From a virus: a stretch of 26,330 bases of DNA. Positions 449 through 25,689 of the stretch are shown here, in pieces. A model generated the notes under the pieces. It was not told the DNA's origin and ran no database searches. It worked only from the letters and a program-made list of their open reading frames with translations. Each line of letters opens with the position of its first letter. Position 1 is the stretch's first letter. Location: IMG/VR virus record IMGVR_UViG_3300032215_000494, positions 1 to 26,330 of that record. The stretch is one strand, 5' to 3'. The translations under genes were made by a program, and so were the position numbers.

Positions 449-1906
449 TTAATCTGTGACTTTGAAACTTAAGCCTGCATCACCGGGACTACCCGGTGAC
501 ATTTTGGTATGTAGTACAACATTCCCGTCAACTTTACCCGGCCATAGAACTTTGGTAACTAATTTTTTACTAATGATACGTGAGAAGATTTGGATAAAGT
601 TTTCATCTAATAACTCTAACACAGTTTTTCTAAATTTATCAATTAGTGTACTTGTGTTAATAATGTTAACTAAGTCTTTGGTAACAACATAAGCTAACTT
701 ACCACCATCAGTACCTTTACTTTGCTGGATGCTAGGAGCACTGATTAATTTGTTAAACTTTTCAGGCATTGGTTCAGCACCTTTGCTATTGATGTTCTTT
801 AACACTTTACGCATGTCTTCGCTGTAAAAAGGTAGCATGCCGCTATACTGTTCTGGAATTAAATCTGGATAATTATTATATAACCAATTCATCCCGGCAA
901 ATCCTTGAACGGTAACCGGCTTTACCTGAATAATATGATTGATAAAGTCTAATGAATTACCTGTTTTAATTTTGTCCTTACGCTTTTGAAGTGAAGGAGC
1001 TAGACCACTTAATGCAGGAGCCGCGCCTGATGCAGTACTACCCTTACCGCCTTTGCTACTAATCATAATAGTATGTCCAGTAGCCGCATTTTGCACTCCA
1101 TAACTATCACTCAATGATGCATTTTGTTCACCCGGGAATATTAGTGATAATCCCTTAAGGTTTGGCGCTCCTAAGAATTTTAAAAATCTATCTTGTTTGG
1201 GAAATTCTGCAACTTCGTTTATCATTGCAAGTATACCCAAATACTCACCTGCATCGATGGCTATTTTCTTTTGTGTAGTTTCATCATACATGCTTAAGTC
1301 AGGTACTTTTTTAGCTTGCATTTGTTTAGCAACTTCTTTAATCCCGGCACCTAACTCACCTGCTTGGTCAAGTATTTCGTTGTTCATAATAGTTTGATAT
1401 AAACTACCTGCAGGAATTTCTTTATGTGCATCTAGTGCATTTTTAATTTCTTCATCTGTAGTAAGTACAACTTTATCTTTTGGTTTAGTTCCGGGTTTAT
1501 TGATAGGATCAGTTGCAATACCGATACCAATTGGTTGAACATTAACGTCAGTTGTTACCTGACCTTTCTTAGTTTGTAAGTCAGCTTTTTCAAACTTACT
1601 AACAGGTATAACTTTACCCGGTAATTCTTCACCCTGAGGTGTAACTATTTTTTCAATCTTTAGTGACAGACTTGGTAAAGATGCATTTGGTTGTTTCTTT
1701 AGTGTATCCAACAAATTATAAACTTGTGTAGCTATATTGTCAACTTGCGTTTGGTCCGGGAAGTATTGATTCCCGTCTTTATCAAGGAATGGTGTCCCGT
1801 CAACTATTTTTTTAAGGAAATTAGCAGGTCTCCAGTCTAGGTGACGAGGATCAAATAAATTTGCCGGGGTTAGGGGACTTTCGGTTAAAAATTCTGTGGC
1901 TCGCAT
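449..1906 (-). CDS. Uncharacterised 485-residue phage protein
   Basis: I do not recognise this protein. It opens with MRATEFLTE, a short N-terminal pattern of a type I associate with T4-like environmental phage proteins. It has no signal peptide or membrane segment. The middle (about 110-170) is rich in Lys, Pro, Thr and Asp and looks extended. A low-complexity Gly/Ser/Lys/Ala stretch follows near 285-300 (SSKGGKGSTASGAAPALSG). The C-terminal third looks globular. There is no Shine-Dalgarno; instead a T4-late-like box ends eight bases before the ATG, which points to late expression and perhaps a virion role. Function is unknown. Confidence 0.75.
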   Translation of the reverse strand: MRATEFLTESPLTPANLFDPRHLDWRPANFLKKIVDGTPFLDKDGNQYFPDQTQVDNIATQVYNLLDTLKKQPNASLPSLSLKIEKIVTPQGEELPGKVIPVSKFEKADLQTKKGQVTTDVNVQPIGIGIATDPINKPGTKPKDKVVLTTDEEIKNALDAHKEIPAGSLYQTIMNNEILDQAGELGAGIKEVAKQMQAKKVPDLSMYDETTQKKIAIDAGEYLGILAMINEVAEFPKQDRFLKFLGAPNLKGLSLIFPGEQNASLSDSYGVQNAATGHTIMISSKGGKGSTASGAAPALSGLAPSLQKRKDKIKTGNSLDFINHIIQVKPVTVQGFAGMNWLYNNYPDLIPEQYSGMLPFYSEDMRKVLKNINSKGAEPMPEKFNKLISAPSIQQSKGTDGGKLAYVVTKDLVNIINTSTLIDKFRKTVLELLDENFIQIFSRIISKKLVTKVLWPGKVDGNVVLHTKMSPGSPGDAGLSFKVTD

Positions 1907-1914
1907 GATATAAG

Positions 1915-1922
1915 TATTTATT
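1915..1922 (-). promoter_or_regulatory. T4-late-like promoter box before the 485-residue gene
   Basis: The minus strand reads AATAAATA followed by CTTATATC and then the ATG. This differs from the T4 late consensus TATAAATA at one base and also continues with the CT of the consensus extension. There is no Shine-Dalgarno between box and start, so the transcript would begin at or next to the start codon. Confidence 0.5.
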
Positions 1923-2010
1923 CAAAATTATAATTTATTCATATAAAAAAATGACTATTAGCCGTTCCTGTGTTAAATATACTGTACAGTTCAAAATTAA
2001 AGGAGAATAT

Positions 2011-2349
2011 ATGTTTGAATTTTTGAAAAAGTTATTTTCAAGTAAGCCTAAGACAATAGAAACACCCGCACCAGCGTGGGATAATACAGTACCTTATAAG
2101 GTGCCTGAGCCACCTGCAACAACACCGATTCCATTAGTTATTACTAACAGCAATCCTGCAGATAATGTACCTTTAGTTGCAAAAGTAGAACCAGTTGTTC
2201 CTAAAGCTGAAACACCTGCTAAAAAACCACGTGCTCCACGTGCTCCAAAAGTAGCAAAAACTGAAACTGCACCTAAAGCAAAAAAAGTTAAAGAAACAAC
2301 TGATAAGCCTAAGGCACCTAAAAAACCAAAAATTAGTATTGCCAAATAA
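2011..2349 (+). CDS. Lys/Pro/Ala-rich basic-tailed protein
   Basis: A 112-residue protein beginning MFEFLKKLFSSKPKT, a short amphipathic head. A Pro-rich linker follows, then a basic low-complexity tail built from KKPRAPRAPK- and KAPKKPK-like units (about residues 68-112), resembling histone H1 or bacterial Lys/Ala/Pro DNA-binding tails. The start at 2011 is chosen over the upstream ATG at 1951 because AAAGGAG precedes it with good spacing. It is the first of two plus-strand genes in a mostly minus-strand region, with the next start 3 bases after its stop. The head resembles that of the protein at 25686-26123. Nucleic-acid binding is an inference from composition only. Confidence 0.75.
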   Translation: MFEFLKKLFSSKPKTIETPAPAWDNTVPYKVPEPPATTPIPLVITNSNPADNVPLVAKVEPVVPKAETPAKKPRAPRAPKVAKTETAPKAKKVKETTDKPKAPKKPKISIAK

Positions 2350-2352
2350 TAG

Positions 2353-3054
2353 ATGAACACGATTGGTTTTGATTTAATTAGCGACCTGAATCTTAACAAT
2401 CAGGACAGTTTTAATTGGGAAGGTAAAGCTACAAGTTTATATTGTATCATTGCGGGTAACTTAAGTGATGACTTACAAGTTATAAGAGAAACATTAATTC
2501 ATTTATCTAATTGTTATCAGGGTGTGTTTTACACGCTAGGGTCGATGGAATATAACAATACCAATGATATTGCTACTCGTACTGCTGAAATACATAAATT
2601 ATGCAGGACAATTAAAAATGTAGCTGTTATGCACCATCACGTGGTAATCGTAGATGGCATAGCTGTTGTGGGGGCAAACGGATGGTATGGTAATGTAGTA
2701 CCTACTAATCCTGAAATCAATGCGTTAGTAGAACAACATCGTAATGAAGATATACTATATCTAAAAAATACAATTGAAAAACTACAAAAACATTTGGATG
2801 TTAAAAAGATTATCGTAGTAAGTAACTCGGTTCCTAGTCCAAATTTGTATTTTGGACAACAACCAGAAACAATTCAAAATCAATTAAATCTTACTATAGC
2901 CCTACTTTCAGATAGTGAAAGTAAAGTAACTCATTGGGCATTTGGGACATTTGACAAATTAGTTGATGTCGGTATTAGCGGCATCAACTATGTCAACAAT
3001 GGATGTTTTAGAAAAAACCCTTATTGGGCTAAAAGAATAGAAATTACCTGTTAA
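2353..3054 (+). CDS. Degenerate metallophosphoesterase-fold protein (probable pseudoenzyme)
   Basis: A 233-residue protein that follows the calcineurin-like phosphoesterase layout: FDLISDLNLN (usual SDLHL), CIIAGNLSDD (usual AGDxxD), VFYTLGSMEYN (usual GNHEY), AVVGANGWYGN, KIIVVSNSVPSP (usual VTHHAPS) and HWAFGTFDKLVD (usual GHTHxxxD). The first Asp is kept. The His of DxH, the Asp of GD, the Asn/His of GNH, the His of the HH motif and the GHTH histidines are all replaced. It therefore probably binds a partner or ligand rather than hydrolysing phosphoesters. No Shine-Dalgarno is evident; translation may be coupled to the gene ending 3 bases upstream. The stop overlaps the clpS stop. Confidence 0.75.
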   Translation: MNTIGFDLISDLNLNNQDSFNWEGKATSLYCIIAGNLSDDLQVIRETLIHLSNCYQGVFYTLGSMEYNNTNDIATRTAEIHKLCRTIKNVAVMHHHVVIVDGIAVVGANGWYGNVVPTNPEINALVEQHRNEDILYLKNTIEKLQKHLDVKKIIVVSNSVPSPNLYFGQQPETIQNQLNLTIALLSDSESKVTHWAFGTFDKLVDVGISGINYVNNGCFRKNPYWAKRIEITC

Positions 3055-3356
3055 GCCTCTTGCTCAATTTTTACTTGAAGAGGAAAGCCCTTGCTACGTG
3101 CGTCTAGTGTAACTTCAACGCCCTTTTGTTCAGCAATTTCGTAAGGTAATACAGCTACTACAGCACTACCGGCTTCATGGATATTATGCGTAATGTTCTG
3201 TGCATGTTCCATATTGTAGTCAAAGTAATTAATTAGACTACCAACAACAAACTCCATGCTTGTTACTTCATCATTAAAATAGATTATTTTAAATAATGGT
3301 GGTTCGCTCAATGCTAGATTGGGTCTAATTTTTACTTTTGTTTCTGCTTTTGACAT
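3051..3356 (-). CDS. clpS: ClpS N-degron adaptor
   Basis: ClpS delivers proteins with destabilising N-terminal residues to the Clp protease, classically through ClpA. The 101-residue product has the ClpS core PPLFKIIYFNDEVTSMEFV, a long helix, IHEAGSAVVAVLP and YEIAEQKGVEV. Compared with E. coli ClpS, the binding-pocket Asp35 (here Asp29), Met40 (Met34), Val43 (Val37) and His66 (His60) are kept, while Asp36 is Glu30. The start at 3356 is preferred over an in-frame ATG at 3413 because AAAGG lies upstream of it, whereas the longer start has none and sits at the edge of a hairpin. It is downstream of hsp20 in the same direction. No ClpA is seen in the window. Confidence 0.93.
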   Translation of the reverse strand: MSKAETKVKIRPNLALSEPPLFKIIYFNDEVTSMEFVVGSLINYFDYNMEHAQNITHNIHEAGSAVVAVLPYEIAEQKGVEVTLDARSKGFPLQVKIEQEA

Positions 3357-3387
3357 GGTTTGGCTAGCCTTTAAAATGTTGTTATAA

Positions 3388-3411
3388 GTGTGTAGCCTTT
3401 CGACTACACAC
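3388..3411 (-). terminator. Hairpin between hsp20 and clpS
   Basis: A perfect 8-bp stem GTGTGTAG/CTACACAC with an 8-base loop lies 11 bases past the hsp20 stop. No strong T-tract follows on the minus strand, so it could be a weak terminator, an attenuator or an RNA-processing and stability element between hsp20 and clpS. Confidence 0.45.
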
Positions 3412-3422
3412 ATGCTATTATA

Positions 3423-3878
3423 TTATTTAGTGTAGGTAATAGCAATAGACTTGGGCTTTTGTTCCTCAGGAATTTCACGTTTTAAGTGAACACTAAGGAT
3501 ACCCAATTCAAGGTGAGCATTTTCAATCTCAACGTGGTCTGCAAGTTTGAATTCACGACGGAAATCTCTTGCACTAATTCCACGATGTAGATAGTTAATG
3601 TCAGGCACATCTTCTTCCTTGATTGTGTTTTTACCCTCAATAATCAAAAAGTTTTTGTCTTTTGTTACTGAAAGGTTATCAAGTCCAAACCCAGCCACAG
3701 CCATACTAATCATATACTCGTCCTCATTGATTTGGACTATGTTATATGGGGGATAGTTTGTGGTTGATTGTTGGGAATGAATTCTATGTAACTCATCAAA
3801 CATGTTATCGAATCCGATACCAAATTTGTGAATTGCGGGAAGGTCGAAGGAACGCAGGGTTAAAGTTTTATTTGTCAT
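3423..3878 (-). CDS. hsp20: Small heat-shock protein Hsp20 (IbpA-like)
   Basis: A 151-residue alpha-crystallin-type holdase that would keep unfolded proteins soluble. It aligns along its length with E. coli IbpA: IGFDNMFDELHRI, YPPYNIVQINEDEYMISMAVAGF, LIIEGKN, YLHRGISARDFRREFKLADHVEI, GILSVHLKREIPEEQKPKSI, with the C-terminal I-x-I/V-type tail. Hsp20 genes are known in T4-like cyanophages. The start at 3878 is fixed by the Shine-Dalgarno AAGGAG at 3886-3891, which can be paired in a ROSE-like hairpin (see 3885-3904). It lies between bS21 and clpS in the same orientation. Confidence 0.95.
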   Translation of the reverse strand: MTNKTLTLRSFDLPAIHKFGIGFDNMFDELHRIHSQQSTTNYPPYNIVQINEDEYMISMAVAGFGLDNLSVTKDKNFLIIEGKNTIKEEDVPDINYLHRGISARDFRREFKLADHVEIENAHLELGILSVHLKREIPEEQKPKSIAITYTK

Positions 3879-3884
3879 TTGTTT

Positions 3885-3904
3885 TCTCCTTTATATAAGC
3901 AAGA
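3885..3904 (-). promoter_or_regulatory. ROSE-like RNA thermometer hairpin over the hsp20 Shine-Dalgarno
   Basis: In the hsp20 leader, UCUUGCUU (3897-3904) can pair with AAGGAGA (3885-3891) across an AUAUA loop. The pairs are U-A, C-G, U-A, U-G, a bulged G, then C-G, U-A and U-A. A U(U/C)GCU motif pairing with the Shine-Dalgarno around an unpaired G is the hallmark of ROSE elements that control bacterial small heat-shock genes, including ibpA. Thermosensing itself is inferred. Confidence 0.6.
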
Positions 3905-3915
3905 TGACTGTATGA

Positions 3916-3939
3916 GTAGACCCGACTATCGGCATCTAC
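3916..3939 (-). promoter_or_regulatory. Upstream hairpin in the hsp20 leader
   Basis: The minus strand can fold with an outer stem GTAGA/TCTAC and an inner stem CCGA/TCGG around a TAG loop. ROSE leaders typically carry one or more such stable hairpins before the thermosensing one. It would be the first structure of a transcript starting near 3939. Confidence 0.45.
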
Positions 3940-3945
3940 AATACG

Positions 3946-3953
3946 TATTTATT
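3946..3953 (-). promoter_or_regulatory. T4-late-like box upstream of the hsp20 leader
   Basis: The minus strand reads AATAAATAC, one mismatch from the T4 late box, and sits inside a 7-bp inverted repeat TACAATA/TATTGTA (937-956). A start near 3939 would give a leader of about 60 bases that contains both hairpins. Confidence 0.4.
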
Positions 3954-3988
3954 GTAATAAAAATACGCAAAAAATTCTACTATTTTGG

Positions 3989-4210
3989 TTAAAAAAGTTT
4001 CTTTGGTAACTCTTGGTCACGTAATTGTCGTTTCCATCTACTCTTTGCTTGCCCTCTGGCAATTTTTCTCTTAGTAGTTGGTTTAGTGTATTCTTGGCGG
4101 TCACGGACTTCTTGCAGTAAATTAGACTCTGCTATTTTCTTTTTGAATTTACGTAATGCTTTTTCAACATTTCCGTCCTGTACAATGACTTTTCTGCCTC
4201 TGAGAATCAT
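3989..4210 (-). CDS. rpsU: Ribosomal protein bS21
   Basis: A 73-residue small-subunit protein homologous to bS21, which sits near the mRNA exit and anti-Shine-Dalgarno region of the 30S subunit. Matching features are the N-terminal KVIVQDGNVEKALRKFKKKI, LLQEVRDRQEYTKPTTKRKI and a basic C-terminal tail. Length is as usual for the family. Its ATG overlaps the clpX stop (ATGA), so translation is coupled to clpX. Phage-encoded bS21 is known in large and pelagic phages, where it is thought to exchange into host ribosomes and bias initiation. That idea is relevant here because several genes in this window appear to lack Shine-Dalgarno sequences. Confidence 0.95.
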   Translation of the reverse strand: MILRGRKVIVQDGNVEKALRKFKKKIAESNLLQEVRDRQEYTKPTTKRKIARGQAKSRWKRQLRDQELPKKLF

Positions 4211-5418
4211 ATAATCTTTTTTGGTTCCAAAACTAGTGCTTGATTAATATTTATCTCTTTTACGTTATTTTCTCTGTAGTCTCTTGTGTTATACATATGC
4301 GGCATCAATACACGTTCAATCTCAGTATGCAATCCGCGGGCGCCTGTTTTTAGTGTCAAGCAGTTATCAACGATTTGGTCTAGTGCCTCATCATCAAATG
4401 ACAATTCAATACCATCAATACTGAACAAGTACTTGTATTGGTCAATATAACTGTTTTTAACATCAATAAGTACCTTTTTAAGTTCCTCTTTAGATAGTTC
4501 AGTGATACTAACTGTTGTAGTAAAACGACCAATGAATTCAGGAATCATGCCAAACTTAACTAGGTCATCAGGCGTAGTTAGTGCTAAGTCACCTTCTTTT
4601 TTGCCGTCTCTAACCTCAGCACTAAATCCAATACTAGTGCCATTAGTCCGCTTGTTAATAACTTCTCTTAATCCAACAAACGCTCCACCGGCAATAAACA
4701 AAATATTCTTTGTGTTAATCTCTAACATATCACCGCCGGGGTGTTTGCGTCCGCCACCATTTGGAATTCTACAAACTGTACCCTCAACCAGTTTAAGTAA
4801 TGCTTGTTGAACACCCTCACCTGATACATCACGTGTTATGCTAGCACCTTCACTTTTACGTGCAATCTTATCAATCTCATCAATAAACACAATGCCACGC
4901 TCTGCTAATCTAGCATCACCGTTAGCCGCATTAACTAACATGGCTATCATACTTTCGGCGTCATCACCAACATAACCTGCTTCAGTTAAACTGGTTGCAT
5001 CAGCTACAACAAAGGGAACTTCTAAATACTTTGCTACTGTTTTAGCTAGTAATGTTTTACCACTACCGGTTGGACCTAACAACAATACATTGCCTTTTTG
5101 AATTTCTAAATCTTTAGGTGGATGTGTAATACGTTTATAGTGATTGGCAATAGCAACACTTAAAATAGTTTTAGCCCAGTCTTGACCTATAACATGTAAA
5201 TCTAAAAACGTTTTAATAGTACAAGGATCATATTTGATATTGTTTTCTTTTGAAACTTCAGTTTCTGGTGTAACTGCTTCCTCGTCCATTAAGTGAACAC
5301 ACAAATCAATACATTCACTACATATAGCAACATCATCCCCTACAATTAGTTTTTTTACTTTATCTTTGTGATTGTTGCAAAACGAACAGTGGTTCAATGG
5401 TTTAGTTTCATTAGTCAT
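4207..5418 (-). CDS. clpX: ATP-dependent Clp protease unfoldase ClpX
   Basis: Complete 403-residue AAA+ unfoldase. The N-terminal zinc-binding domain has Cys11, Cys14, Cys33 and Cys36. Walker A GPTGSGKT is at about 115-122, the pore-1 GYVG loop at 148-151, Walker B IVFIDEID with Asp180-Glu181, the RKH substrate loop at 224-226, the IGF loop at 263-265 that docks on ClpP, and sensor-2 GARGL near the C-terminus. Everything needed for ATP-driven unfolding and ClpP docking is present. No Shine-Dalgarno precedes the ATG; a perfect TATAAATA lies six bases upstream. Its stop overlaps the bS21 start. Confidence 0.97.
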   Translation of the reverse strand: MTNETKPLNHCSFCNNHKDKVKKLIVGDDVAICSECIDLCVHLMDEEAVTPETEVSKENNIKYDPCTIKTFLDLHVIGQDWAKTILSVAIANHYKRITHPPKDLEIQKGNVLLLGPTGSGKTLLAKTVAKYLEVPFVVADATSLTEAGYVGDDAESMIAMLVNAANGDARLAERGIVFIDEIDKIARKSEGASITRDVSGEGVQQALLKLVEGTVCRIPNGGGRKHPGGDMLEINTKNILFIAGGAFVGLREVINKRTNGTSIGFSAEVRDGKKEGDLALTTPDDLVKFGMIPEFIGRFTTTVSITELSKEELKKVLIDVKNSYIDQYKYLFSIDGIELSFDDEALDQIVDNCLTLKTGARGLHTEIERVLMPHMYNTRDYRENNVKEININQALVLEPKKII

Positions 5419-5424
5419 ATGTTA

Positions 5425-5432
5425 TATTTATA
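5425..5432 (-). promoter_or_regulatory. T4-late-type promoter box of clpX
   Basis: The minus strand reads TATAAATA, then TAACAT, then the clpX ATG. It is a perfect match to the T4 late box. With the usual spacing to the start site, transcription would begin at the A of the ATG. No Shine-Dalgarno is present. Confidence 0.55.
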
Positions 5433-5449
5433 TTAATATTTTTTAGATT

Positions 5450-6445
5450 TTAATTTTGACAATTGCTATGTGGTACAACCGATACTTCAATAGTAATTAT
5501 CTTTTGTAAAATCCATTCGTACTTTGGATCAATAGTTGCTCGTAGTACGTTTTCCTCTGATTCATTACCGTATATAATGAGGTTGCTTGGATCACCTAAA
5601 CCATAAAAAGATGCTTTTTTTCCTGTCACCGAATCGGGAATCCAACAGCTACTATATAGTGCAACATTATTTCTATCACGCAATACCATTTTAATGCGTA
5701 CTTCTTTGTTACCGGTCATTGAAGATTTAATATCATCAATCATTGGTACATCATTAAATTGATAATGATTGCGATTTCCTAATACATAATCTTTGGGATC
5801 CTTTGCCATGACTGTTACATTAGCAGGAGCCTTTTGCAAAAAATTAAATTTATTATCCTGTGTTATTTTCAACGCTTCATTAAAGGCTACGATGTAGTCA
5901 TAGTTCCAATTCAATTTATAAGGTACCTCTAGCACAGCATTTTGATTTTTATCAACCACAATACTATACGCTTTAGTTTTAATGGTATAGGCATTTTGTG
6001 GGTATGTTCTCAACACAGCGGACATAATACTATTGGCATTGTTTTTTTGAGTCCTATATGAATTTATTTTATCGCTAAGTTTAGTACCGTCAATGTAGTC
6101 TTCAACTTTTCCTCTGTTAAGAGTTTGGTCAATTAATTTACTAGGAGCAACAAGAACATCCATTGTGATCCGTACATTTGTACCTAACACCGTTGACGAA
6201 ATAATTCTATAGTCATCAATATATCCGGCACTGTACAAAGAAATATTGTCACGGGTTAGGTTGTTAGTATTTGATTCTAGTTCACTGATAACAACCGAAC
6301 CAACCCTAGTTTGTATTGCTTGTCTAAAGGCATTATTTTTTGCCTCAATAACTGTAGTGCCTTCTGCTGTTACACGAATGTAATCATTAGCAAAACATTC
6401 AATTGAGGCAAATAAACATGCTACTACACATAGTAGTCGCAACAT
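5450..6445 (-). CDS. Secreted LPP20/FlgT-like protein
   Basis: A 331-residue protein with a signal peptide (MLRLLCVVACLFASIECFA, cleavage before ND). The next part, IRVTAEGTTVIEAKNNAFRQ followed by VGSVVISELES and YIDDYRIISSTV, follows the alpha/beta layout of the N-terminal domain of FlgT and related LPP20-type periplasmic proteins. The C-terminal half is unrecognised. It starts three bases after the lipoprotein gene upstream and is probably cotranscribed with it, so the pair likely acts together in the periplasm. Family assignment rests on pattern only. A role in envelope remodelling or superinfection exclusion is possible but unproven. Confidence 0.7.
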   Translation of the reverse strand: MLRLLCVVACLFASIECFANDYIRVTAEGTTVIEAKNNAFRQAIQTRVGSVVISELESNTNNLTRDNISLYSAGYIDDYRIISSTVLGTNVRITMDVLVAPSKLIDQTLNRGKVEDYIDGTKLSDKINSYRTQKNNANSIMSAVLRTYPQNAYTIKTKAYSIVVDKNQNAVLEVPYKLNWNYDYIVAFNEALKITQDNKFNFLQKAPANVTVMAKDPKDYVLGNRNHYQFNDVPMIDDIKSSMTGNKEVRIKMVLRDRNNVALYSSCWIPDSVTGKKASFYGLGDPSNLIIYGNESEENVLRATIDPKYEWILQKIITIEVSVVPHSNCQN

Positions 6446-6448
6446 GAT

Positions 6449-7084
6449 TTAGTTACTGCCAAATTTCTTACGCAATTGAGCCGCAGTATTATCGCTGTCT
6501 TTATCCCAACGCATAGTAACAGTAACTTCTTGATTACCGGTTACTTCTTGCTTAAGGGCATAAAAGCCACGCAACCTAGTCTGTGCATTTACACGAATAT
6601 TTTCAGCCAATGAATGTGCAGTGTTATTGCTGTTTTCAAGAATGCTATAGTTAGTATCTTTTTCAGCTTCGGTATCACTCATGCTAACAGCTTCACCAGT
6701 TGTAGTGCGTGACTTAACACGGTCATTAGCTTTTTCAATGTTCTTGGCAATAGTGTTAGACACCCTATTACTAGAAACTTCTTCATTCATAAAGTGAGCC
6801 ACGTTAGCTAATGCCTTCATTTGGGCACGTGTTAATGCAGTGATGCGATTGTTGTTACTATTACCATTTGTAGTTGCACTACCAGAACTAGTGATAGAAA
6901 CAATTTCACAATCAGATTTCCATGGTTTGTACCATACACAATCAGTTTCAATCTTGATTGTATCTTGATTAAAAGATGTTGAAAGTTTTTGATTGCGGAT
7001 GGGTTCGATTTCACCCTCACCACGTTTTACTGTACTGCAACCAACCAATGCCATAACTGCGGCTGAAATAATTAAGAGTTTCAT
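6449..7084 (-). CDS. Outer-membrane-type lipoprotein, LPP20-like
   Basis: A 211-residue protein with a lipoprotein signal MKLLIISAAVMALVGC; the lipidated residue would be Cys16, and Ser at +2 predicts outer-membrane sorting. A Ser/Asn/Thr-rich stretch lies at about 65-80. The later part (ALTRAQMKALANVAHFMNEE, then a helical segment and RLRGFYALKQEVTGNQEVTV) resembles LPP20-type lipoproteins. GAGGA (7091-7096 region) gives a good Shine-Dalgarno, and a near-consensus sigma70 promoter precedes it. It is followed directly by the secreted partner. Confidence 0.75.
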   Translation of the reverse strand: MKLLIISAAVMALVGCSTVKRGEGEIEPIRNQKLSTSFNQDTIKIETDCVWYKPWKSDCEIVSITSSGSATTNGNSNNNRITALTRAQMKALANVAHFMNEEVSSNRVSNTIAKNIEKANDRVKSRTTTGEAVSMSDTEAEKDTNYSILENSNNTAHSLAENIRVNAQTRLRGFYALKQEVTGNQEVTVTMRWDKDSDNTAAQLRKKFGSN

Positions 7085-7114
7085 ACTGAATCCTCAAGAG
7101 TTAATGATGTATAT

Positions 7115-7143
7115 ATTATACTACAAATCTTAATTCTTGTCAT
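7115..7143 (-). promoter_or_regulatory. Sigma70-type promoter of the lipoprotein pair
   Basis: The minus strand has ATGACA (138-143 of the 7000s) and TATAAT (7115-7120) with a 17-base spacer. The -35 box overlaps the end of the membrane-protein gene. The predicted start near 7108 gives a short leader with a GAGGA Shine-Dalgarno. Confidence 0.7.
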
Positions 7144-8812
7144 CTTTTTTGGTTAAATATTCTTCGATTTGTTGTTTCTCACTTTCGGATAACAGTTCAA
7201 TGTCATATTCACCATTATCAATCTTTTGGATCAAGTATTTGACGTACTCAATATCATGCAAGTAGCTTGTGGATATGTCTTTATTGACAGCAATCCATCT
7301 TAACCCGTCAAATTTGTACACACGGTTTGGCAATACATCAACACGGACAAAAGTGTCACCTTTAATTGCTAATTTGGGAAACTCTACTCCAAAACTAGTA
7401 TTGCTTTGTCTTTCGTTGTCCGCAACCAATTTCAACACATCTGGGCGCATATTCTTTAGTACGTCCATGTGCATGTGTTTACCCTCGTAAACCACGTAAT
7501 TACCTTCCAACATTTGGTATGGTTTTTCAGCGGTTACACCATCTGTAATTATGGTTTCGGTTGAATCCACTGTTATATCATCATTGACAGTAGGTTCTTT
7601 ACGGATTTCTATTTTGGGTTGGTTTTCTTTATATGTTACTATGGGCTCACTAAAGGTATAATTACCGTTACCAAAATTGGGCTTTTTAGTTTCGGGTTTA
7701 GTAAATTCCCAATCTATACCATAAGTATTGTCTACAACATCACATTCTTTGTTAGGACAGAATGGTCCAATACCAGGTGCGTCTATTAATGGTGTACCAC
7801 ATTTATAGCAAGGTCCTAATTTGTCATCATCTTCTTCGGGAAACAATTCAGTTTTGGTAATCAGTTCGTCTTTGGGTAAATCTTCTTTTACCCGTTCACG
7901 TAATGCATTTAGTGCTTCTTCATTTATGGGGCCTTCATCTGGTTCATACGCAGGTTTAATTGGATTCTCTACATTTTCTTTGACACGATCCTCAAACATT
8001 TTCATGTAATCAGGTGCATCTAAAACAGTCTTTTCTCTTTCTTCTCTATCCCACACACGACTTTGATTTGCCGCAATAACCATCATTAATGCCAATGGGT
8101 CAAATACTAAAACAATAAGAATGATTACCCAACGTACAGCACGTTCTAATAAGTTACTGTCTGGGTTATCACCGTACATGAATGCCGCAATATATTTTAT
8201 TGGTCCAACCTCTGCTTCCACTTTTCTGACCTCGGCGGCAATAGGCGCACGGGCATCACTAAGTTCCGCGATAGACTTCTGCGACTGTAATATTTCATTT
8301 TGAAGGCGAGTACGTTCTTTCTGCTGGGACTTACGCATAGCCACAGCTTTGTCGGCACCTTTTTCATCTGTTGAGCGGCCCAGTACTTGGTCCACTCCCT
8401 CATCCATCTGTTTAAGTGCCTTACGGTTTGCTTCAATATTCTCTTTCTCGGTTTTAATTTTTTCATCATATACTGCAATCTTAGCGATAACGTCACCGCT
8501 AACTAAATTTTGGTCACTATGTGCTTTACTTAGGTAGCCAAAGATACCCATACTTGTCATTAGTGCCAGTGCAAGTACAGCGGGAATCAAATACACTTTG
8601 AGAAGAAAACTTACACGTTCCCAATATATTTTTAACCAAACAGTGGTCACAATCTTAGATAGTTCTAGTATTGAACCCATGATAATGATTGGGATTACTG
8701 CCCCGGCAAAGATGGCAGTAAGTCCTGATATACTATACCATGCGGCAACAGCACTTAATGAAAGTGCTACTAGTAGTGTAAAATTGGAAAAGGTGAATAT
8801 TCTTTTTATCAT
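7130..8812 (-). CDS. Four-helix membrane protein with coiled coil and zinc ribbon
   Basis: A 560-residue membrane protein. Likely membrane segments are at about 11-28, 31-50, 72-93 and 228-247. Residues 108-205 are strongly charged and helical, consistent with a coiled coil between segments three and four. A CxxC-x13-CxxxxC zinc-ribbon-like motif uses Cys335, Cys338, Cys352 and Cys357. The C-terminal 200 residues are acidic and soluble. The first 100 residues (TAIFAGAVIPIIIMGSILEL and the following helix) resemble a recurring uncharacterised membrane protein of T4-like marine phages. No Shine-Dalgarno; a T4-late-like box lies six bases before the ATG. Function unknown. Confidence 0.8.
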   Translation of the reverse strand: MIKRIFTFSNFTLLVALSLSAVAAWYSISGLTAIFAGAVIPIIIMGSILELSKIVTTVWLKIYWERVSFLLKVYLIPAVLALALMTSMGIFGYLSKAHSDQNLVSGDVIAKIAVYDEKIKTEKENIEANRKALKQMDEGVDQVLGRSTDEKGADKAVAMRKSQQKERTRLQNEILQSQKSIAELSDARAPIAAEVRKVEAEVGPIKYIAAFMYGDNPDSNLLERAVRWVIILIVLVFDPLALMMVIAANQSRVWDREEREKTVLDAPDYMKMFEDRVKENVENPIKPAYEPDEGPINEEALNALRERVKEDLPKDELITKTELFPEEDDDKLGPCYKCGTPLIDAPGIGPFCPNKECDVVDNTYGIDWEFTKPETKKPNFGNGNYTFSEPIVTYKENQPKIEIRKEPTVNDDITVDSTETIITDGVTAEKPYQMLEGNYVVYEGKHMHMDVLKNMRPDVLKLVADNERQSNTSFGVEFPKLAIKGDTFVRVDVLPNRVYKFDGLRWIAVNKDISTSYLHDIEYVKYLIQKIDNGEYDIELLSESEKQQIEEYLTKKDDKN

Positions 8813-8818
8813 AATTAG

Positions 8819-8826
8819 TATTTATT
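8819..8826 (-). promoter_or_regulatory. T4-late-like box before the 560-residue membrane protein
   Basis: The minus strand reads AATAAATA then CTAATT then ATG, matching the T4 late consensus core at seven of eight bases plus the CTA extension. It overlaps the stop codon of the upstream gene. No Shine-Dalgarno intervenes. Confidence 0.5.
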
Positions 8827-14051: not shown

Positions 14052-14098
14052 CTAACTGTTTAAGATTCTATTATATACCCAAATCCATTTATTGTCAA
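14052..14098 (-). promoter_or_regulatory. Early-promoter cassette P1
   Basis: TTGACA (14093-14098), 17-base spacer, TATAAT (14070-14075), then a conserved transcribed start AGAATCTTA. The TGA in the -35 is the stop codon of the 66-residue gene at 14095. Drives the KOW-like gene. One of four near-identical copies in 1.25 kb. Confidence 0.85.
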
Positions 14099-14589: not shown

Positions 14590-14629
14590 TCTAAGATTCT
14601 ATTATATAGCCAAATCGATTTATTGTCAA
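14590..14629 (-). promoter_or_regulatory. Early-promoter cassette P2
   Basis: TTGACA (14624-14629), 17-base spacer, TATAAT (14601-14606), then AGAATCTTAGACAGT. The TGA in the -35 is the stop codon of the 102-residue gene. Drives the 90- and 66-residue genes. Confidence 0.85.
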
Positions 14630-14948: not shown

Positions 14949-14996
14949 TCTAACTGTCTAAGATTCTATTATATACCCAAATCGATTTATTGTCAA
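14949..14996 (-). promoter_or_regulatory. Early-promoter cassette P3
   Basis: TTGACA (14991-14996), 17-base spacer, TATAAT (14968-14973), then AGAATCTTAGACAGTTAGA. Lies just downstream of the stop of the 77-residue gene and drives the 102-residue gene. Confidence 0.85.
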
Positions 14997-15249: not shown

Positions 15250-15297
15250 TCTAACTGTCTAAGATTCTATTATATAGCCAAATCCATTTATTGTCAA
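15250..15297 (-). promoter_or_regulatory. Early-promoter cassette P4
   Basis: TTGACA (15292-15297), 17-base spacer, TATAAT (15269-15274), then AGAATCTTAGACAGTTAGA. Drives the 77-residue gene. Confidence 0.85.
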
Positions 15298-15344: not shown

Positions 15345-16589
15345 TTAATTTAGTGTAATTAATGAATGATATCCCCATGCTTGACTAAAATAGCTATTAA
15401 TAGTTTTTTGCTCAGTTAAATCGTTTGAAATTTCCCAACTACAGCAATAATATTGGTATACTGGATTATTAATATCACTAAAATTCTTATCTTGTAACCA
15501 AGGTGAGAATTCAGTAAAACTCACACCAATTGCAACGTCACTTAATTCTAATCCAATTATTTCAAAGAATGCTTTTACTTTAAGTGATTTTAATTCAGTA
15601 TTTGCAACTTTAGCCTGAGTAGCACCAAGAGCAAAGTTTGTAAACATTGCGCCCCAAAAATCAGCGGGAATTACTCCTACTCCTACATCAGCTCCGCTAG
15701 AAGCCATTCCCAAAATTACCTTTTTACCATACTTATTGTAAATGTCTTTTAATACTTTAACTTGGTCTATGCCATAGATATCATTATGATACAGTTTTGT
15801 AATTGCTTTTAAATCAGTTAATGGGGTGTTAGATAATCCATTTGATAAAATTATACTAGGGTAATCAACATAATTCCAAACTGGGGTGTCTTGAATCATA
15901 GGAGTAGAATATGAAAGTTTACCAGAATACATTGATTTGATATTAGAAATTAAATACTGCCAGTAATAAACATGACTCTCTGAATCAAAATTGTAATTAC
16001 CTTCACTAACAAATATACCGTCAACCTTATGACTTTCTGCAAGTGCGGCAATAGGCTTGTCGTAATTTGCAATGTTGTTAAACATTTGTTGTTCAGAATA
16101 TTTGGTAAAGTCAGGGGTTAAGAAACAATCTGAAACACTATCTACAATAGCCAATGATATCCAAACTTTTAACCCTTGACTTTTAGCATAATCAACTACT
16201 TGCCAAGTAGCCTTAGGCAAAACTTTAATATTAGTAGGATCATCATTGATAGCTCCGGTCTTAGCATTTACCGGGGCTTGTAATTGAATAACCACTCCGT
16301 TAAATCCAATAGATTTGATTTGGTCTATTAGTGGGGTAACTGCTTCGTATGATGTTGTATGAACACCTGCTTTATTTACAGAACCAGTTTGTGTATCATA
16401 TCGGTAATCTAATCTAGCAAATCTAAAATTGTTTACTGTAATTGGTTGTATGAAACCATTTTGGTTAACAATTACACTAGGACTAGAAGTTGGATTGGGT
16501 AGTGCGCTAGAATTTGTTGCACCGCCCCCACCACCGCATGCTGTAAGAACAAGGCTAAGTACAGTTGTACATATAACACTACGGAACAT
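15345..16589 (-). CDS. Lipoprotein with glycoside-hydrolase-like (GH113-type) barrel
   Basis: A 414-residue lipoprotein. The signal MFRSVICTTVLSLVLTAC places the lipid on Cys18, followed by a run of five Gly and a Ser/Pro linker. The rest reads as a TIM barrel: NFRFARLDYRYDTQ, IKSIGFNGVVIQLQAP, YAKSQGLKVWISLAIVD, KVDGIFVSEGNYNF, YYWQYLISNIKSMYSGKLSY, KKVILGMASSGADVG. The order recalls GH113 and related glycosidases, with a Glu in VSEGNYN as a possible catalytic residue. The start at 16589 is favoured over 16601 because GGAG sits six bases before it. Likely periplasmic side of the outer membrane. Activity is unproven. Confidence 0.75.
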   Translation of the reverse strand: MFRSVICTTVLSLVLTACGGGGGATNSSALPNPTSSPSVIVNQNGFIQPITVNNFRFARLDYRYDTQTGSVNKAGVHTTSYEAVTPLIDQIKSIGFNGVVIQLQAPVNAKTGAINDDPTNIKVLPKATWQVVDYAKSQGLKVWISLAIVDSVSDCFLTPDFTKYSEQQMFNNIANYDKPIAALAESHKVDGIFVSEGNYNFDSESHVYYWQYLISNIKSMYSGKLSYSTPMIQDTPVWNYVDYPSIILSNGLSNTPLTDLKAITKLYHNDIYGIDQVKVLKDIYNKYGKKVILGMASSGADVGVGVIPADFWGAMFTNFALGATQAKVANTELKSLKVKAFFEIIGLELSDVAIGVSFTEFSPWLQDKNFSDINNPVYQYYCCSWEISNDLTEQKTINSYFSQAWGYHSLITLN

Positions 16590-16621
16590 AAGAAACTCCA
16601 TGAGTTGACAATAATGTAGCT

Positions 16622-16656: not shown

Positions 16657-17781
16657 TTATTCTAGCAATAAAGTTTTGGGTGCATCATTATACCAATCTT
16701 TGACTTCATCATTACTAATTAATTTTAATTCATCATTGGTATATTTTTGACCTAAATTATTTTCTTCTACCCAAATATTATATGTTTCTACACATTGGTC
16801 AAAGTTTTTTATAATTTTTCTTTTCTCTGCTAATGTTTGTAATTTAATTGGTACACCGGTGGGAAGTGTACCTGTTTGTACTAACTCTTTTATCCCTTTA
16901 TAAGTACTGGTATATTTTTCACTATGTTGTTTTAAATAATTTTGATCCATTAATGATAAGTTATTTCTTAACTTGTTAATTACCATTAATTTTTTTTCTG
17001 TAGTATTTTCCTCATTACCATCATAACCCAATGATGCAATATCTTCTACACTACCTAAATCACTTAATAATTTATGACATTTATTCCAATCATTCCATTC
17101 AATTGAAAAAATATCATTCCAAGTCTTCTTTTCTTTGTTGGGGAAAATATCTAAATTTAAAATATAACTTTCAATATCTTTCAAATCTTTTTCATAATTA
17201 AAATAACTATTAACTTGAAAATGATTTTCTACCCATTTTAAATAATTTTTATATTTAGATAGGTAATTCCATAATACAGTTTGGTCTACTGTAATACCAT
17301 TTTTATATATGTCATAAAATACATTTAATTTTTCAACGTGGCTGTAAACATTCAATTTTTTACTGTGTGCAGAAATTGCCCAACTAATTCCATGCTCAAA
17401 TAAATTTTCTCGTCTGGCTGAAATAATAAAAAAATTCTCATTAATGTAATTGTAAAAACGTAGTTGGTCTGCTAAGGAATCTTGTCTGTTTATTATATGA
17501 TATAATGCTAACCTAGATGTTTTATAATGGTCTGCCCTTTCTAGTAAATCAATAATCTCAGTTAACGATTGATGGTATCCCCATTTATCACGATCCCACA
17601 TTGGAGGTTTACTTAACATTTCTCTACCATATGTGGTGTTGTAATTAATGTCTAATCCATTAGTAAGTTCGTGTAAGTTGATAACAGGTTTATCGTACTG
17701 ATGTCCTGCCATGTATATAGTTATTAATCGTTGTAATAAAGTGCTGCCTACTCGGTCAGGAGTTAAAATAAGAACATTCAT
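16657..17781 (-). CDS. Sulfotransferase-like protein
   Basis: A 374-residue protein. The N-terminal MNVLILTPDRVGSTLLQRLI has the position and shape of the PAPS 5'-phosphosulfate-binding loop (P-x-S/V-G-S-T-L/F). FFIISARRENLFEHGISWAIS at about 120-140 resembles the 3'-phosphate-binding segment of sulfotransferases. The remainder is helical and Asn/Lys-rich. Such proteins recur in T4-like environmental phages. The start ATG at 17781 is used; the only upstream extension begins at a TTG inside a hairpin. Substrate unknown, perhaps a host surface glycan. Confidence 0.72.
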   Translation of the reverse strand: MNVLILTPDRVGSTLLQRLITIYMAGHQYDKPVINLHELTNGLDINYNTTYGREMLSKPPMWDRDKWGYHQSLTEIIDLLERADHYKTSRLALYHIINRQDSLADQLRFYNYINENFFIISARRENLFEHGISWAISAHSKKLNVYSHVEKLNVFYDIYKNGITVDQTVLWNYLSKYKNYLKWVENHFQVNSYFNYEKDLKDIESYILNLDIFPNKEKKTWNDIFSIEWNDWNKCHKLLSDLGSVEDIASLGYDGNEENTTEKKLMVINKLRNNLSLMDQNYLKQHSEKYTSTYKGIKELVQTGTLPTGVPIKLQTLAEKRKIIKNFDQCVETYNIWVEENNLGQKYTNDELKLISNDEVKDWYNDAPKTLLLE

Positions 17782-17802
17782 ATATTTATTTAGCGCATAT
17801 GG

Positions 17803-19594: not shown

Positions 19595-19627
19595 AAAAAA
19601 AATATAGGGAACTTTCATTCCCTATAT
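19595..19627 (-). terminator. Rho-independent terminator
   Basis: A 10-bp stem ATATAGGGAA/TTCCCTATAT (602-611 and 618-627 of the 19000s), a 6-base loop, and then eight T on the minus strand. It lies three bases past the stop of the gene at 19630, which it should terminate. Confidence 0.88.
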
Positions 19628-19629
19628 AC

Positions 19630-19914
19630 TTATGCCGTTCCATAAGTCTCTTTATATTTCACTAAAGCCTTTGCCCTAGCTAAAGCTAATCTCACTGTAA
19701 CATAATCACTTAATTCTTCATCTGGTTCAGGTTGAAGATTACTTGACTTGTCTACATCCTTACGGCGATATCCAGTTATTAATCCGTCATCGTCAAGGTC
19801 TATATCATCGTCATTGTCATCTAAGACAAATAACGAAAATTTAGTTGGATTACTTCTTAGTAGCTTCGGCTGCTGGTTTAGCTTCTGTTTTAGCAGGAGC
19901 ACTTTTAGTGGCAT
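19630..19914 (-). CDS. Small acidic protein overlapping the secreted protein gene
   Basis: The C-terminal 70 residues (FSLFVLDDNDDDIDLDDDGL, TGYRRKDVDKSS, YVTVRLALARAKALVKYKET) look like a real acidic phage protein ending at a strong terminator. No ATG, GTG or TTG exists in this frame between the stop of the upstream gene (19850) and that conserved part. The only start is an ATG at 19914, overlapping the upstream gene by 65 bases in another frame. It has only a weak AAGG. Either an internal start or a frameshift from the upstream gene is possible. Confidence 0.5.
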   Translation of the reverse strand: MPLKVLLLKQKLNQQPKLLRSNPTKFSLFVLDDNDDDIDLDDDGLITGYRRKDVDKSSNLQPEPDEELSDYVTVRLALARAKALVKYKETYGTA

Positions 19915-20192: not shown

Positions 20193-20200
20193 ACTAAATA
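20193..20200 (+). promoter_or_regulatory. Possible T4-late-like box before the plus-strand gene
   Basis: ACTAAATAC lies four bases before the ATG at 20205. It differs from TATAAATA at two bases; no Shine-Dalgarno is present. Weaker than the minus-strand examples. Confidence 0.3.
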
Positions 20201-20204
20201 CAGT

Positions 20205-20693
20205 ATGCAATATATATCTTATCAAGGAATTTACGACGGCACAAACTTTGAGTATGCCGGTACACCAGACCAAATTGGAAAATCATTCAATCATGGGTAT
20301 GCTGTATTACAAAATGTTTGGAGAATAGATGGTGTTATCTATTTGGGAGTTTACCAACCCAGAACAGTAGTCAGTGAAAAATTTATTCAAGGTAACCGAT
20401 TTTTTCTTAATGCAATGAATCAGGAAATGCAAACTTGGTTACCAACTCAGCCGGCTAAATCTTATCCTAATTACTTTTGGTTTCCCAATGAACAAGAAAA
20501 TACTCCTGTAACTACTAGTGGTGGGCAGTTGATTACTCCTGGTACGGTTGCAATCAATAACACTAGTATTATTTTTCTTCCTGAAATTCAGGATAGGGGA
20601 ATGTATAGCACCATAAAATTACGATGCTATGGGATTTGCAGTAACTACGCTAGCTTTTCTAAACGAATGCGTAACGAAGGTATTTGGTATTAA
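20205..20693 (+). CDS. Glycerophosphodiesterase-family pseudoenzyme (degenerate active site)
   Basis: A 162-residue protein that follows a short GDPD/PI-PLC-like family as I recall it: ISYQGIYDG where ISHRGNxxG is usual, AVLQNVWRIDG where a VExDVW pair is usual, IYLGVYQP where LGHDxP is usual, FLNAMN where WxHAKN is usual, FWFPNEQ where FWHQxDD is usual, then TPGTVAINNTSIIFLPE and GICSNY where GICSDY is usual. Each catalytic His, Glu or Asp in those motifs is changed, while the fold-forming residues stay. It therefore probably binds rather than hydrolyses. The start at 20205 is chosen because the upstream frame is antisense to a signal-peptide gene. Confidence 0.65.
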   Translation: MQYISYQGIYDGTNFEYAGTPDQIGKSFNHGYAVLQNVWRIDGVIYLGVYQPRTVVSEKFIQGNRFFLNAMNQEMQTWLPTQPAKSYPNYFWFPNEQENTPVTTSGGQLITPGTVAINNTSIIFLPEIQDRGMYSTIKLRCYGICSNYASFSKRMRNEGIWY

Positions 20694-21240: not shown

Positions 21241-21526
21241 CTGGGTACACAGTTGTACCATTATTCATAAACACAACTGTAAATTTATTAGTTTTAAACT
21301 GGTCGTTTAATTTTCTGCATAAATTTCTTGCATGTCCAGGATTACTAAAACTTGTTTTCTTGTATTTAGGTGTAGCTTCATTATCTAAGTAATGTTGGCT
21401 TTTCAAATTGATTGGTTGTCGGTCATAAAACACAGCCCAAATACCACTGGCTTCTACGATTTGGTCGCATTTATATGTTTTCTTGTCTACCATTTCAACA
21501 AGTACTTTGGGTTGAGTTCTGCTCAT
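21233..21526 (-). CDS. Small basic uncharacterised protein
   Basis: A 97-residue Lys/Asn-rich protein with two short strands near the start (KVLVEMVDKKTYKCDQIVEA), a NPGHARNLCRKLND helix and a strand at the end (KFTVVFMNNGTTVY). Its start overlaps the 65-residue gene (ATGA). Function unknown. Confidence 0.68.
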   Translation of the reverse strand: MSRTQPKVLVEMVDKKTYKCDQIVEASGIWAVFYDRQPINLKSQHYLDNEATPKYKKTSFSNPGHARNLCRKLNDQFKTNKFTVVFMNNGTTVYPDE

Positions 21527-21720
21527 TTGAAAGAACCTCCCGTAATTTGTACTTGAATTACTTCTTCAGGTTTGTTTTGTAATTCTTCAGCTTTATCTAT
21601 AAGTAACTTTGCTAGTTCGTCACGTAAACCCCTAGCCTCAGATAAAGGAATGACCACGTCTTTTCCTTGTCTGCTATCAACACTAGCTACTCTATCGATA
21701 AATCTTTTAGTATTAATCAT
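21523..21720 (-). CDS. Small helical phage protein
   Basis: A 65-residue protein beginning MINTKRFIDRVASVDSRQGK, then IPLSEARGLRDELAKLLIDK. The order recalls a recurrent short protein of T4-like phages. There is no Shine-Dalgarno; a GATAAATAC box lies six bases before the ATG, inside the end of the upstream gene. Function unknown. Confidence 0.74.
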   Translation of the reverse strand: MINTKRFIDRVASVDSRQGKDVVIPLSEARGLRDELAKLLIDKAEELQNKPEEVIQVQITGGSFK

Positions 21721-22180
21721 TGTGTGTATTTATCATACTCAATGCTTCGGCCTCTGTTTTATAAGGACCTGAATATGGGTATCTTTGTACAAAAATATAC
21801 TTAGGACAAAAAATAACTTCAGGCTCAGCACTTTGTTTCAATACAAACCATCCTGCGGCATGATAGCATTTGCTCTTTTGTGTTTTGGTAAACAAATGAA
21901 TTTTTCGTTTAATATCAACAATTGAATTGAATACACGTTTTGTAGTGGGATATTCACTAAGAGGTAATTCTTGTTTTACCTTAGGTGCCCCGGGGTGTTG
22001 AAATTCAATTTTAGTTTGTTTTTGAATAGCTGATGTGTTTTTATAAAATTGTTTGTTACCATTCAATTTAACCTCAAAGCCACTACCCTCAGCAAGAACG
22101 TTTCCTACTTTTTCTGTGCCGTTAGTAACTATCCAAAATTGATTTTTAACTACTGGTTTAGCAATTAGTACCTGTGTCAT
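21713..22180 (-). CDS. Conserved-type phage protein with basic C-terminal half
   Basis: A 155-residue protein: KPVVKNQFWIVTNGTEKVGN, FEVKLNGNKQFYKNTSAIQK, TKRVFNSIVDIKRKIHLFTK, SKCYHAAGWFVLKQ and YIFVQRYPYSGPYKTEAEAL. I recognise the order from T4-like marine phages, where the function is unknown. AAAAGG lies before the ATG. The 65-residue gene begins inside its last codons. Confidence 0.78.
   Translation of the reverse strand: MTQVLIAKPVVKNQFWIVTNGTEKVGNVLAEGSGFEVKLNGNKQFYKNTSAIQKQTKIEFQHPGAPKVKQELPLSEYPTTKRVFNSIVDIKRKIHLFTKTQKSKCYHAAGWFVLKQSAEPEVIFCPKYIFVQRYPYSGPYKTEAEALSMINTHND
21727..21734 (-). promoter_or_regulatory. Possible T4-late-like box before the 65-residue gene
   Basis: The minus strand reads GATAAATAC, one mismatch from the T4 late core, then six bases to the ATG. 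It lies inside the final codons of the upstream gene, so chance is a real possibility. Confidence 0.35.
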
Positions 22181-25660: not shown

Positions 25661-25689
25661 ATTATATACCCAAATGGATTTATTGTCAA
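25661..25689 (-). promoter_or_regulatory. Early-type sigma70 promoter P5
   Basis: TTGACA (25684-25689), a 17-base spacer with the same ATAAATCCATTTGGGTA core as P1-P4, TATAAT (25661-25666). The TGA in the -35 is the stop codon of the upstream gene. The transcribed start differs from P1-P4. Confidence 0.85.

Follow-up and report, generated by a model that had tools for sequence, protein, structure and literature searches.

The window analysed here is a 26-kb fragment (26,330 nucleotides (nt)), IMG/VR virus record IMGVR_UViG_3300032215_000494, and its subject is a box resembling the late promoter of phage T4 that lies only a few nt before start codons. In textbook T4 late transcription, the boxes lie well upstream of the genes and the leaders carry Shine-Dalgarno (SD) sequences. 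In the window, clpX and the genes of a 560-residue membrane protein (p560) and a 485-residue protein (p485) each have such a box close to the ATG and no SD. These three boxes, at 6, 6 and 8 nt from the respective ATGs, had been pointed out in a first-pass annotation of the same DNA, and all three are present as described. The p485 protein matches no PHROG or Pfam family. The genes and their boxes are as follows.

5432..5425, minus strand: clpX box TATAAATA, spacer TAACAT (6 nt) to the ATG at 5418, without SD
4207..5418, minus strand: clpX, predicted first cistron of a leaderless late mRNA, with Pfam matches to the ClpX C4 zinc finger and AAA_2
8826..8819, minus strand: p560 box AATAAATA, spacer CTAATT (6 nt) to the ATG at 8812, without SD
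7130..8812, minus strand: p560, predicted leaderless
1922..1915, minus strand: p485 box AATAAATA, spacer CTTATATC (8 nt) to the ATG at 1906, without SD
449..1906, minus strand: p485, predicted leaderless

Conservation and spacing of the boxes

Relatives of the window proteins were found on contigs of up to 525 kb, and the DNA upstream of the homologous starts was aligned. Of 99 p560 orthologs, 96 have a box 3-9 nt before the ATG and none has an SD; among clpX orthologs with at least 66.5% protein identity, 68 of 79 have such a box, which is absent from clpX genes below 66.5% identity. Among p485 orthologs, 7 of 11 have an adjacent box and no SD, while the other four have the box at 17-20 nt, with an AGGT SD between box and ATG. 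Judged from these upstream regions, the p485 family switches between leaderless-type and leadered-type forms. Flanking sequence diverges among the p560, clpX and p485 orthologs while the box stays, mainly as GATAAGTA or GATAAATT in clpX orthologs and as ACTAAATA or AATAAATA in p560 orthologs.

A genome-wide scan of the distance between box and start, as had been proposed with the first-pass annotation, was run on relatives of 56-364 kb, with genes called from codon usage only and blind to upstream signals. Hexamers enriched immediately 5' of starts, collected with no prior motif, fall into two classes, SD and TAAATA. At the family level TAAATA reaches 56, against a background of 3.5, and is the sole top-ranking non-SD hexamer besides its shifted register ATAAAT; other TAA hexamers without SD letters reach about 5 at most, except for the variant TAAGTA (9). 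The distance from ATAAATA to ATG in five pooled genomes is bimodal, with 57 cases at 4-8 nt versus 4.3 expected from permuted motifs (Poisson p about 5e-43), 2 versus 5.7 at 9-14 nt and 71 versus 9.5 at 15-25 nt. When TAAATA is counted with one gene per family (1,047 jumbo-phage families), the box is again enriched near starts, with 56 versus 7.7 expected at 4-8 nt, 5.8 versus 8.0 at 9-14 nt and 65 versus 13.9 at 18-25 nt. Boxes at 4-8 nt are referred to below as near boxes, and those further upstream as distal boxes. A 350-kb genome has 23-32 near-box genes. Their spacers range from 4 to 8 nt, typically 4-6 and mostly 4-5; the spacing of 6-8 nt originally reported lies in the upper part of this range and is not the typical one. 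The exact TATAAATA is too strict as a search motif, with a handful of occurrences per genome.

Near boxes and SDs are seldom found together. Among 4,148 genes, an SD is present in 1.5% of the 338 ATG genes with a box at 4-8 nt, compared with 58% when the box is at 15-30 nt and 37.5% when there is no box. The start codons of near-box genes are almost exclusively ATG (338 ATG, 2 GTG, 1 TTG; n=341; p about 6e-5 versus other genes), and the gene caller favours ATG equally in all genes. This bias is in keeping with E. coli, where leaderless mRNAs strongly prefer AUG (PMC9031893).

The boxes as predicted late promoters

A logo of 130 near boxes reads RATAA[A/G]TA, with 85% A and 15% G at the variable position, which is the T4 late consensus. 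It contains no -35 element, and upstream of the box there is only weak A-richness above background. The ACTAAATA form matches an a/gC variant at -13/-12 that has been reported for Aeh1 (PMC2988020). Distal boxes stand ahead of SD-bearing leaders, among them those of hsp20 in the window, of the tail sheath, and of gp55 in the relative G002, and the box is therefore read as a promoter rather than a ribosome-binding element. The hsp20 configuration is as follows; in the relatives G015 and G002 the distal hsp20 box is 64 nt from the ATG.

3946..3953, minus strand: hsp20 distal box AATAAATA, 67 nt before the ATG at 3878, leadered configuration
3885..3891, minus strand: hsp20 SD AAGGAGA, within the leader of the distal-box transcript

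At 37 of 113 near boxes no same-strand gene ends within 200 nt upstream, so a promoter is needed there. The genes with near boxes include terminase large subunit (in three genomes), portal and virion structural proteins, which marks them as late genes. A gp55-type late sigma factor (phrog_234) is encoded by 10 of 12 relatives of at least 220 kb. A second sigma-factor-like gene (phrog_351) is present in the relative G006 at 284983-285936 (L201:4983-5936), with an adjacent late box and no SD; this regulator may itself be made from a leaderless late mRNA.

The T4 late box spans -13 to -6 (PMC2988020). By this ruler, a 5-nt spacer would put +1 on the A of the AUG. Bacterial RNA polymerase prefers to start at a purine preceded by a pyrimidine. 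A pyrimidine stands immediately 5' of the ATG in 83% of 100 near-box families, versus 47% of SD genes (p about 5e-11) and 43% of non-SD genes (p about 3e-14). Among all near-box genes, both bases before the ATG are pyrimidines in about 90% of those with 7-nt spacers and in 82-88% of those with 6-nt spacers, the latter being weaker after reduction to 15 families. Such pyrimidines would fit a start at the A of the AUG, as the first purine available to the polymerase.

The boxes are best explained as T4-type late promoters, the near form of which would place the start of the transcript at or beside the AUG and yield leaderless mRNAs (rough probability 0.85). The RATAA[A/G]TA boxes would be read by the host RNA polymerase with a gp55-type late sigma factor made by the phage, and would serve in two forms. 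Leadered transcripts would come from boxes at least about 16 nt upstream, often with an SD in the leader. For leaderless transcripts the box would end 4-8 nt, mostly 4-5 nt, before the ATG, and by the T4 ruler +1 would be the A of the AUG or within 1-2 bases of it. The resulting mRNAs, having no SD, would be translated through recognition of the 5'-terminal AUG, like other bacterial leaderless mRNAs. The first-pass annotation had likewise predicted transcripts starting at or beside the start codon, a claim now strengthened by the genome-wide scan, the exclusion of SDs, the pyrimidine at -1, the distal boxes and the switches within families.

Several points weigh against this reading. Some distal boxes lie ahead of genes for replication, DNA polymerase and SSB among them, so the box class is not purely late. 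The 26-kb window, being a fragment, does not include gp55. Neither gp33 nor the gp45 C-terminal domain was detected in the jumbo relatives with hidden Markov models (phrog_254, PF09116), from which divergence may be too great, and the T4 late apparatus is thus only partly demonstrated. The start caller is simple, although blind to upstream signals, and the exclusion of SDs is partly trivial, since a near box fills the SD site. With spacers of 4-8 nt, some transcripts may begin within the AUG or retain 1-3 nt ahead of it.

That the near box is an A/T-rich, SD-independent element of translation initiation, possibly read by ribosomes carrying the phage-encoded ribosomal protein bS21, and not a promoter, would fit its occupying and replacing the SD position and the frequency with which these phages encode bS21. 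However, this consensus is also enriched at distances of 16-80 nt, before SD leaders, it matches the T4 late consensus in phages with gp55, and p485 orthologs that shift the box upstream gain an SD. With the 37 of 113 near boxes that need a promoter, and with bS21 undetected in phages XacN1 and RAS14, a purely translational element appears quite improbable. It could also be supposed that the box is a promoter whose +1 falls inside the gene, or that the real start lies downstream with an SD, the mRNA being leadered and the N-terminus mis-annotated; under a strict T4 ruler, a spacer of 4 would put +1 one base inside the AUG. An in-frame ATG with an SD within 40 codons is, however, equally frequent in near-box families (3/97) and in other genes (33/929), and the alignment of clpX orthologs begins at residue 1, before the zinc finger. 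The depositors of XacN1 and Mosig also picked the same starts in most genes checked, including those of a tail sheath stabilizer and a baseplate wedge protein, while an XacN1 gene annotated as chitinase has its deposited start 72 nt further downstream. A +1 inside the gene or a misplaced start codon is considered highly improbable.

Chance, in the form of an A/T-rich genome and TAA stop codons of upstream genes that yield TAAATA near starts, is hardly credible as a source of the boxes. With one mismatch allowed, the box is indeed not over-represented across the window (78 found versus 84 expected), and the case therefore rests on position and conservation. Upstream stop codons coincide with only 13 of 113 boxes and were rejected as a trivial source. 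Chance is refuted by the controls described above: permuted hexamers are not enriched, TAAATA itself reaches 56 versus 7.7 expected at the family level, the other TAA hexamers remain rare, and orthologs retain the box while its flanks diverge.

Further boxes, bS21 and distribution among phages

Additional near boxes in the window are listed below. Those of the 65-residue gene and of the plus-strand gene at 20205 had been noted before as weaker versions; they are present, and are as good as the others. A sixth box, that of the 374-residue gene, had been missed. The true start of the 162-residue gene is probably 20205, not 20100, and similar genes in G015 (48505) and G006 (254503) have a matching box arrangement. 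The arrangements of the 65- and 374-residue genes likewise recur in G015, at a 65-residue gene (49823-50020) and a 375-residue gene (44462-45589). The box of the 254-residue gene is doubtful.

21734..21727, minus strand: box GATAAATA of the 65-residue gene (21523-21720), spacer 6
20193-20200, plus strand: box ACTAAATA of the 162-residue gene, spacer 4, ATG at 20205
17794..17787, minus strand: box GCTAAATA of the 374-residue gene, spacer 5, ATG at 17781
19627..19634, minus strand: doubtful box CATAAGTA of the 254-residue gene, spacer 8, ATG at 19618, with AGGGA immediately 5' of the ATG

A consensus sigma-70-type promoter, TTGACAATAAATSSATTTGGSTATATAAT, with 17-nt spacing, is found in five near-identical copies on the minus strand, each immediately 5' of a gene. 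These are probably early promoters, contrasting with the late boxes. Additionally, a 418-residue protein encoded at 15345-16601 (minus strand) has a lipoprotein-like start and a borderline match to glycoside hydrolase family 113 (26.9 bits, cut-off 27).

14070-14098, 14601-14629, 14968-14996, 15269-15297 and 25661-25689, minus strand: copies of TTGACAATAAATSSATTTGGSTATATAAT

The window also carries a proteostasis cluster on a single strand (1-360 and 3051-5418), which comprises a ClpP-like fragment, a ClpS-like protein, Hsp20, bS21 and ClpX. The bS21 gene is placed as follows.

3989..4210, minus strand: bS21 homolog (phrog_21469), ATG overlapping the stop codon of clpX (ATGA), predicted to be the second cistron of that gene's mRNA

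A bS21 gene lies directly behind clpX at 123 of 146 clpX ends (the loci being partly redundant), and its start overlaps or nearly overlaps the clpX stop, the window and the largest group both showing an ATGA overlap. The phage bS21 is thus probably translated by coupling from the predicted leaderless clpX mRNA, and its position directly behind clpX makes it probably a product of such a transcript and not a precondition for it. This origin agrees with the late expression of phage bS21 reported in other phages (PMC9723584). Most jumbo relatives encode bS21, as do Mosig and SCTP-2, and T4 and S-PM2 lack it. It was not detected in XacN1 and RAS14, both of which have near boxes; a strict dependence of near boxes on bS21 is contradicted by these two phages, and bS21 is not required. 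The link to bS21 suggested by the first-pass annotation is thus weakly supported, by the gene order behind clpX, but not by XacN1 and RAS14. More speculatively, one promoter type could serve two parallel late programmes, leadered with SD and leaderless; ribosomes altered by bS21 would favour the leaderless class late in infection, and bS21 made from the leaderless clpX-bS21 mRNA would close a positive loop, freeing part of late translation from the anti-SD. We regard this scheme as unlikely. G001 (IMGVR_UViG_3300027749_002876, 524,565 bases) carries two bS21 genes and also has clpX regions at two loci (L113 and L152); it is either a large genome with duplicates or two genomes joined.

Judged from the genomes, the late promoter often directly abuts the start codon in a large group of giant phages from freshwater and in a few cultured relatives. 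The first-pass annotation had held that the arrangement is not that of T4, and indeed no box lies 4-8 nt from a start in T4, nor in KVP40, Aeh1 or S-PM2, all of which have distal boxes (KVP40 and Aeh1, like Atu_ph07, RAS14 and SCTP-2, were scanned in part). Atu_ph07 has one near box, and distal boxes are present. XacN1 has 14 near boxes (p about 2e-8); promoters are not discussed in the XacN1 paper. There are 9 near boxes in SCTP-2, 5 in Mosig and 4 in RAS14; the spacer is exactly 5 nt in 16 of these 18, although the counts alone are not significant (p 0.5, 0.09 and 0.06, respectively). These three phages probably share the near-box arrangement. In SCTP-2, a cultured Salicola phage (MF360958), a p560-like gene lies directly before clpX (about 192.7-195.1 kb), and this phage is a possible laboratory model for the p560-clpX region.

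Comparison with known systems

In a widespread clade of giant phages, in XacN1 and probably in SCTP-2, Mosig and RAS14, a late promoter seems to be fused to the start codon of terminase, portal and other genes. Such a fusion would couple the choice of promoter to the mode of translation initiation, and the cultured phages that have it could serve as models for natural leaderless translation during infection. Near-start boxes would also aid the calling of gene starts, and might explain why late promoters are missed by standard searches; in pelagimyophages, late-promoter prediction was unsuccessful (PMC7029224). Leaderless phage transcripts and the TATG promoters of phiKZ are known, and in the literature found, the coverage of which is incomplete, no T4-type late promoter is described in a position like that seen here. 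The element appears to be a T4-type promoter of the ordinary kind, unusual for its position and used systematically.

Like the late promoters of T4, which depend on gp55, gp33 and gp45 (PMC2988020), the near boxes combine an 8-bp TATAAATA box, no -35 element and a gp55-type sigma factor with structural and packaging genes downstream. However, none of the boxes scanned in T4, KVP40, Aeh1 and S-PM2 is 4-8 nt from a start, a position occupied here in 23-32 genes per 350-kb genome. The late promoters of phiKZ (PMC4666361) are similar in being a jumbo-phage late element at or beside the transcription start, but there the element is 5'-TATG-3' and is used by the non-virion RNA polymerase, whereas here it is a -10-type box such as gp55-type sigma factors recognise. 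With the leaderless mRNAs of bacteria and lambda cI (PMC9031893), the predicted transcripts share the missing leader, the missing SD and the strong AUG preference; they differ in that a dedicated class of late promoter would set the 5' end at the AUG in dozens of phage genes. Finally, as in other phages that encode bS21 (PMC9723584), bS21 stands beside Clp, Hsp20 and structural genes, late expression having been reported for those phages. In that account no promoter or leaderless arrangement is mentioned, while here the bS21 gene follows, as second cistron, a clpX that is predicted to be leaderless.

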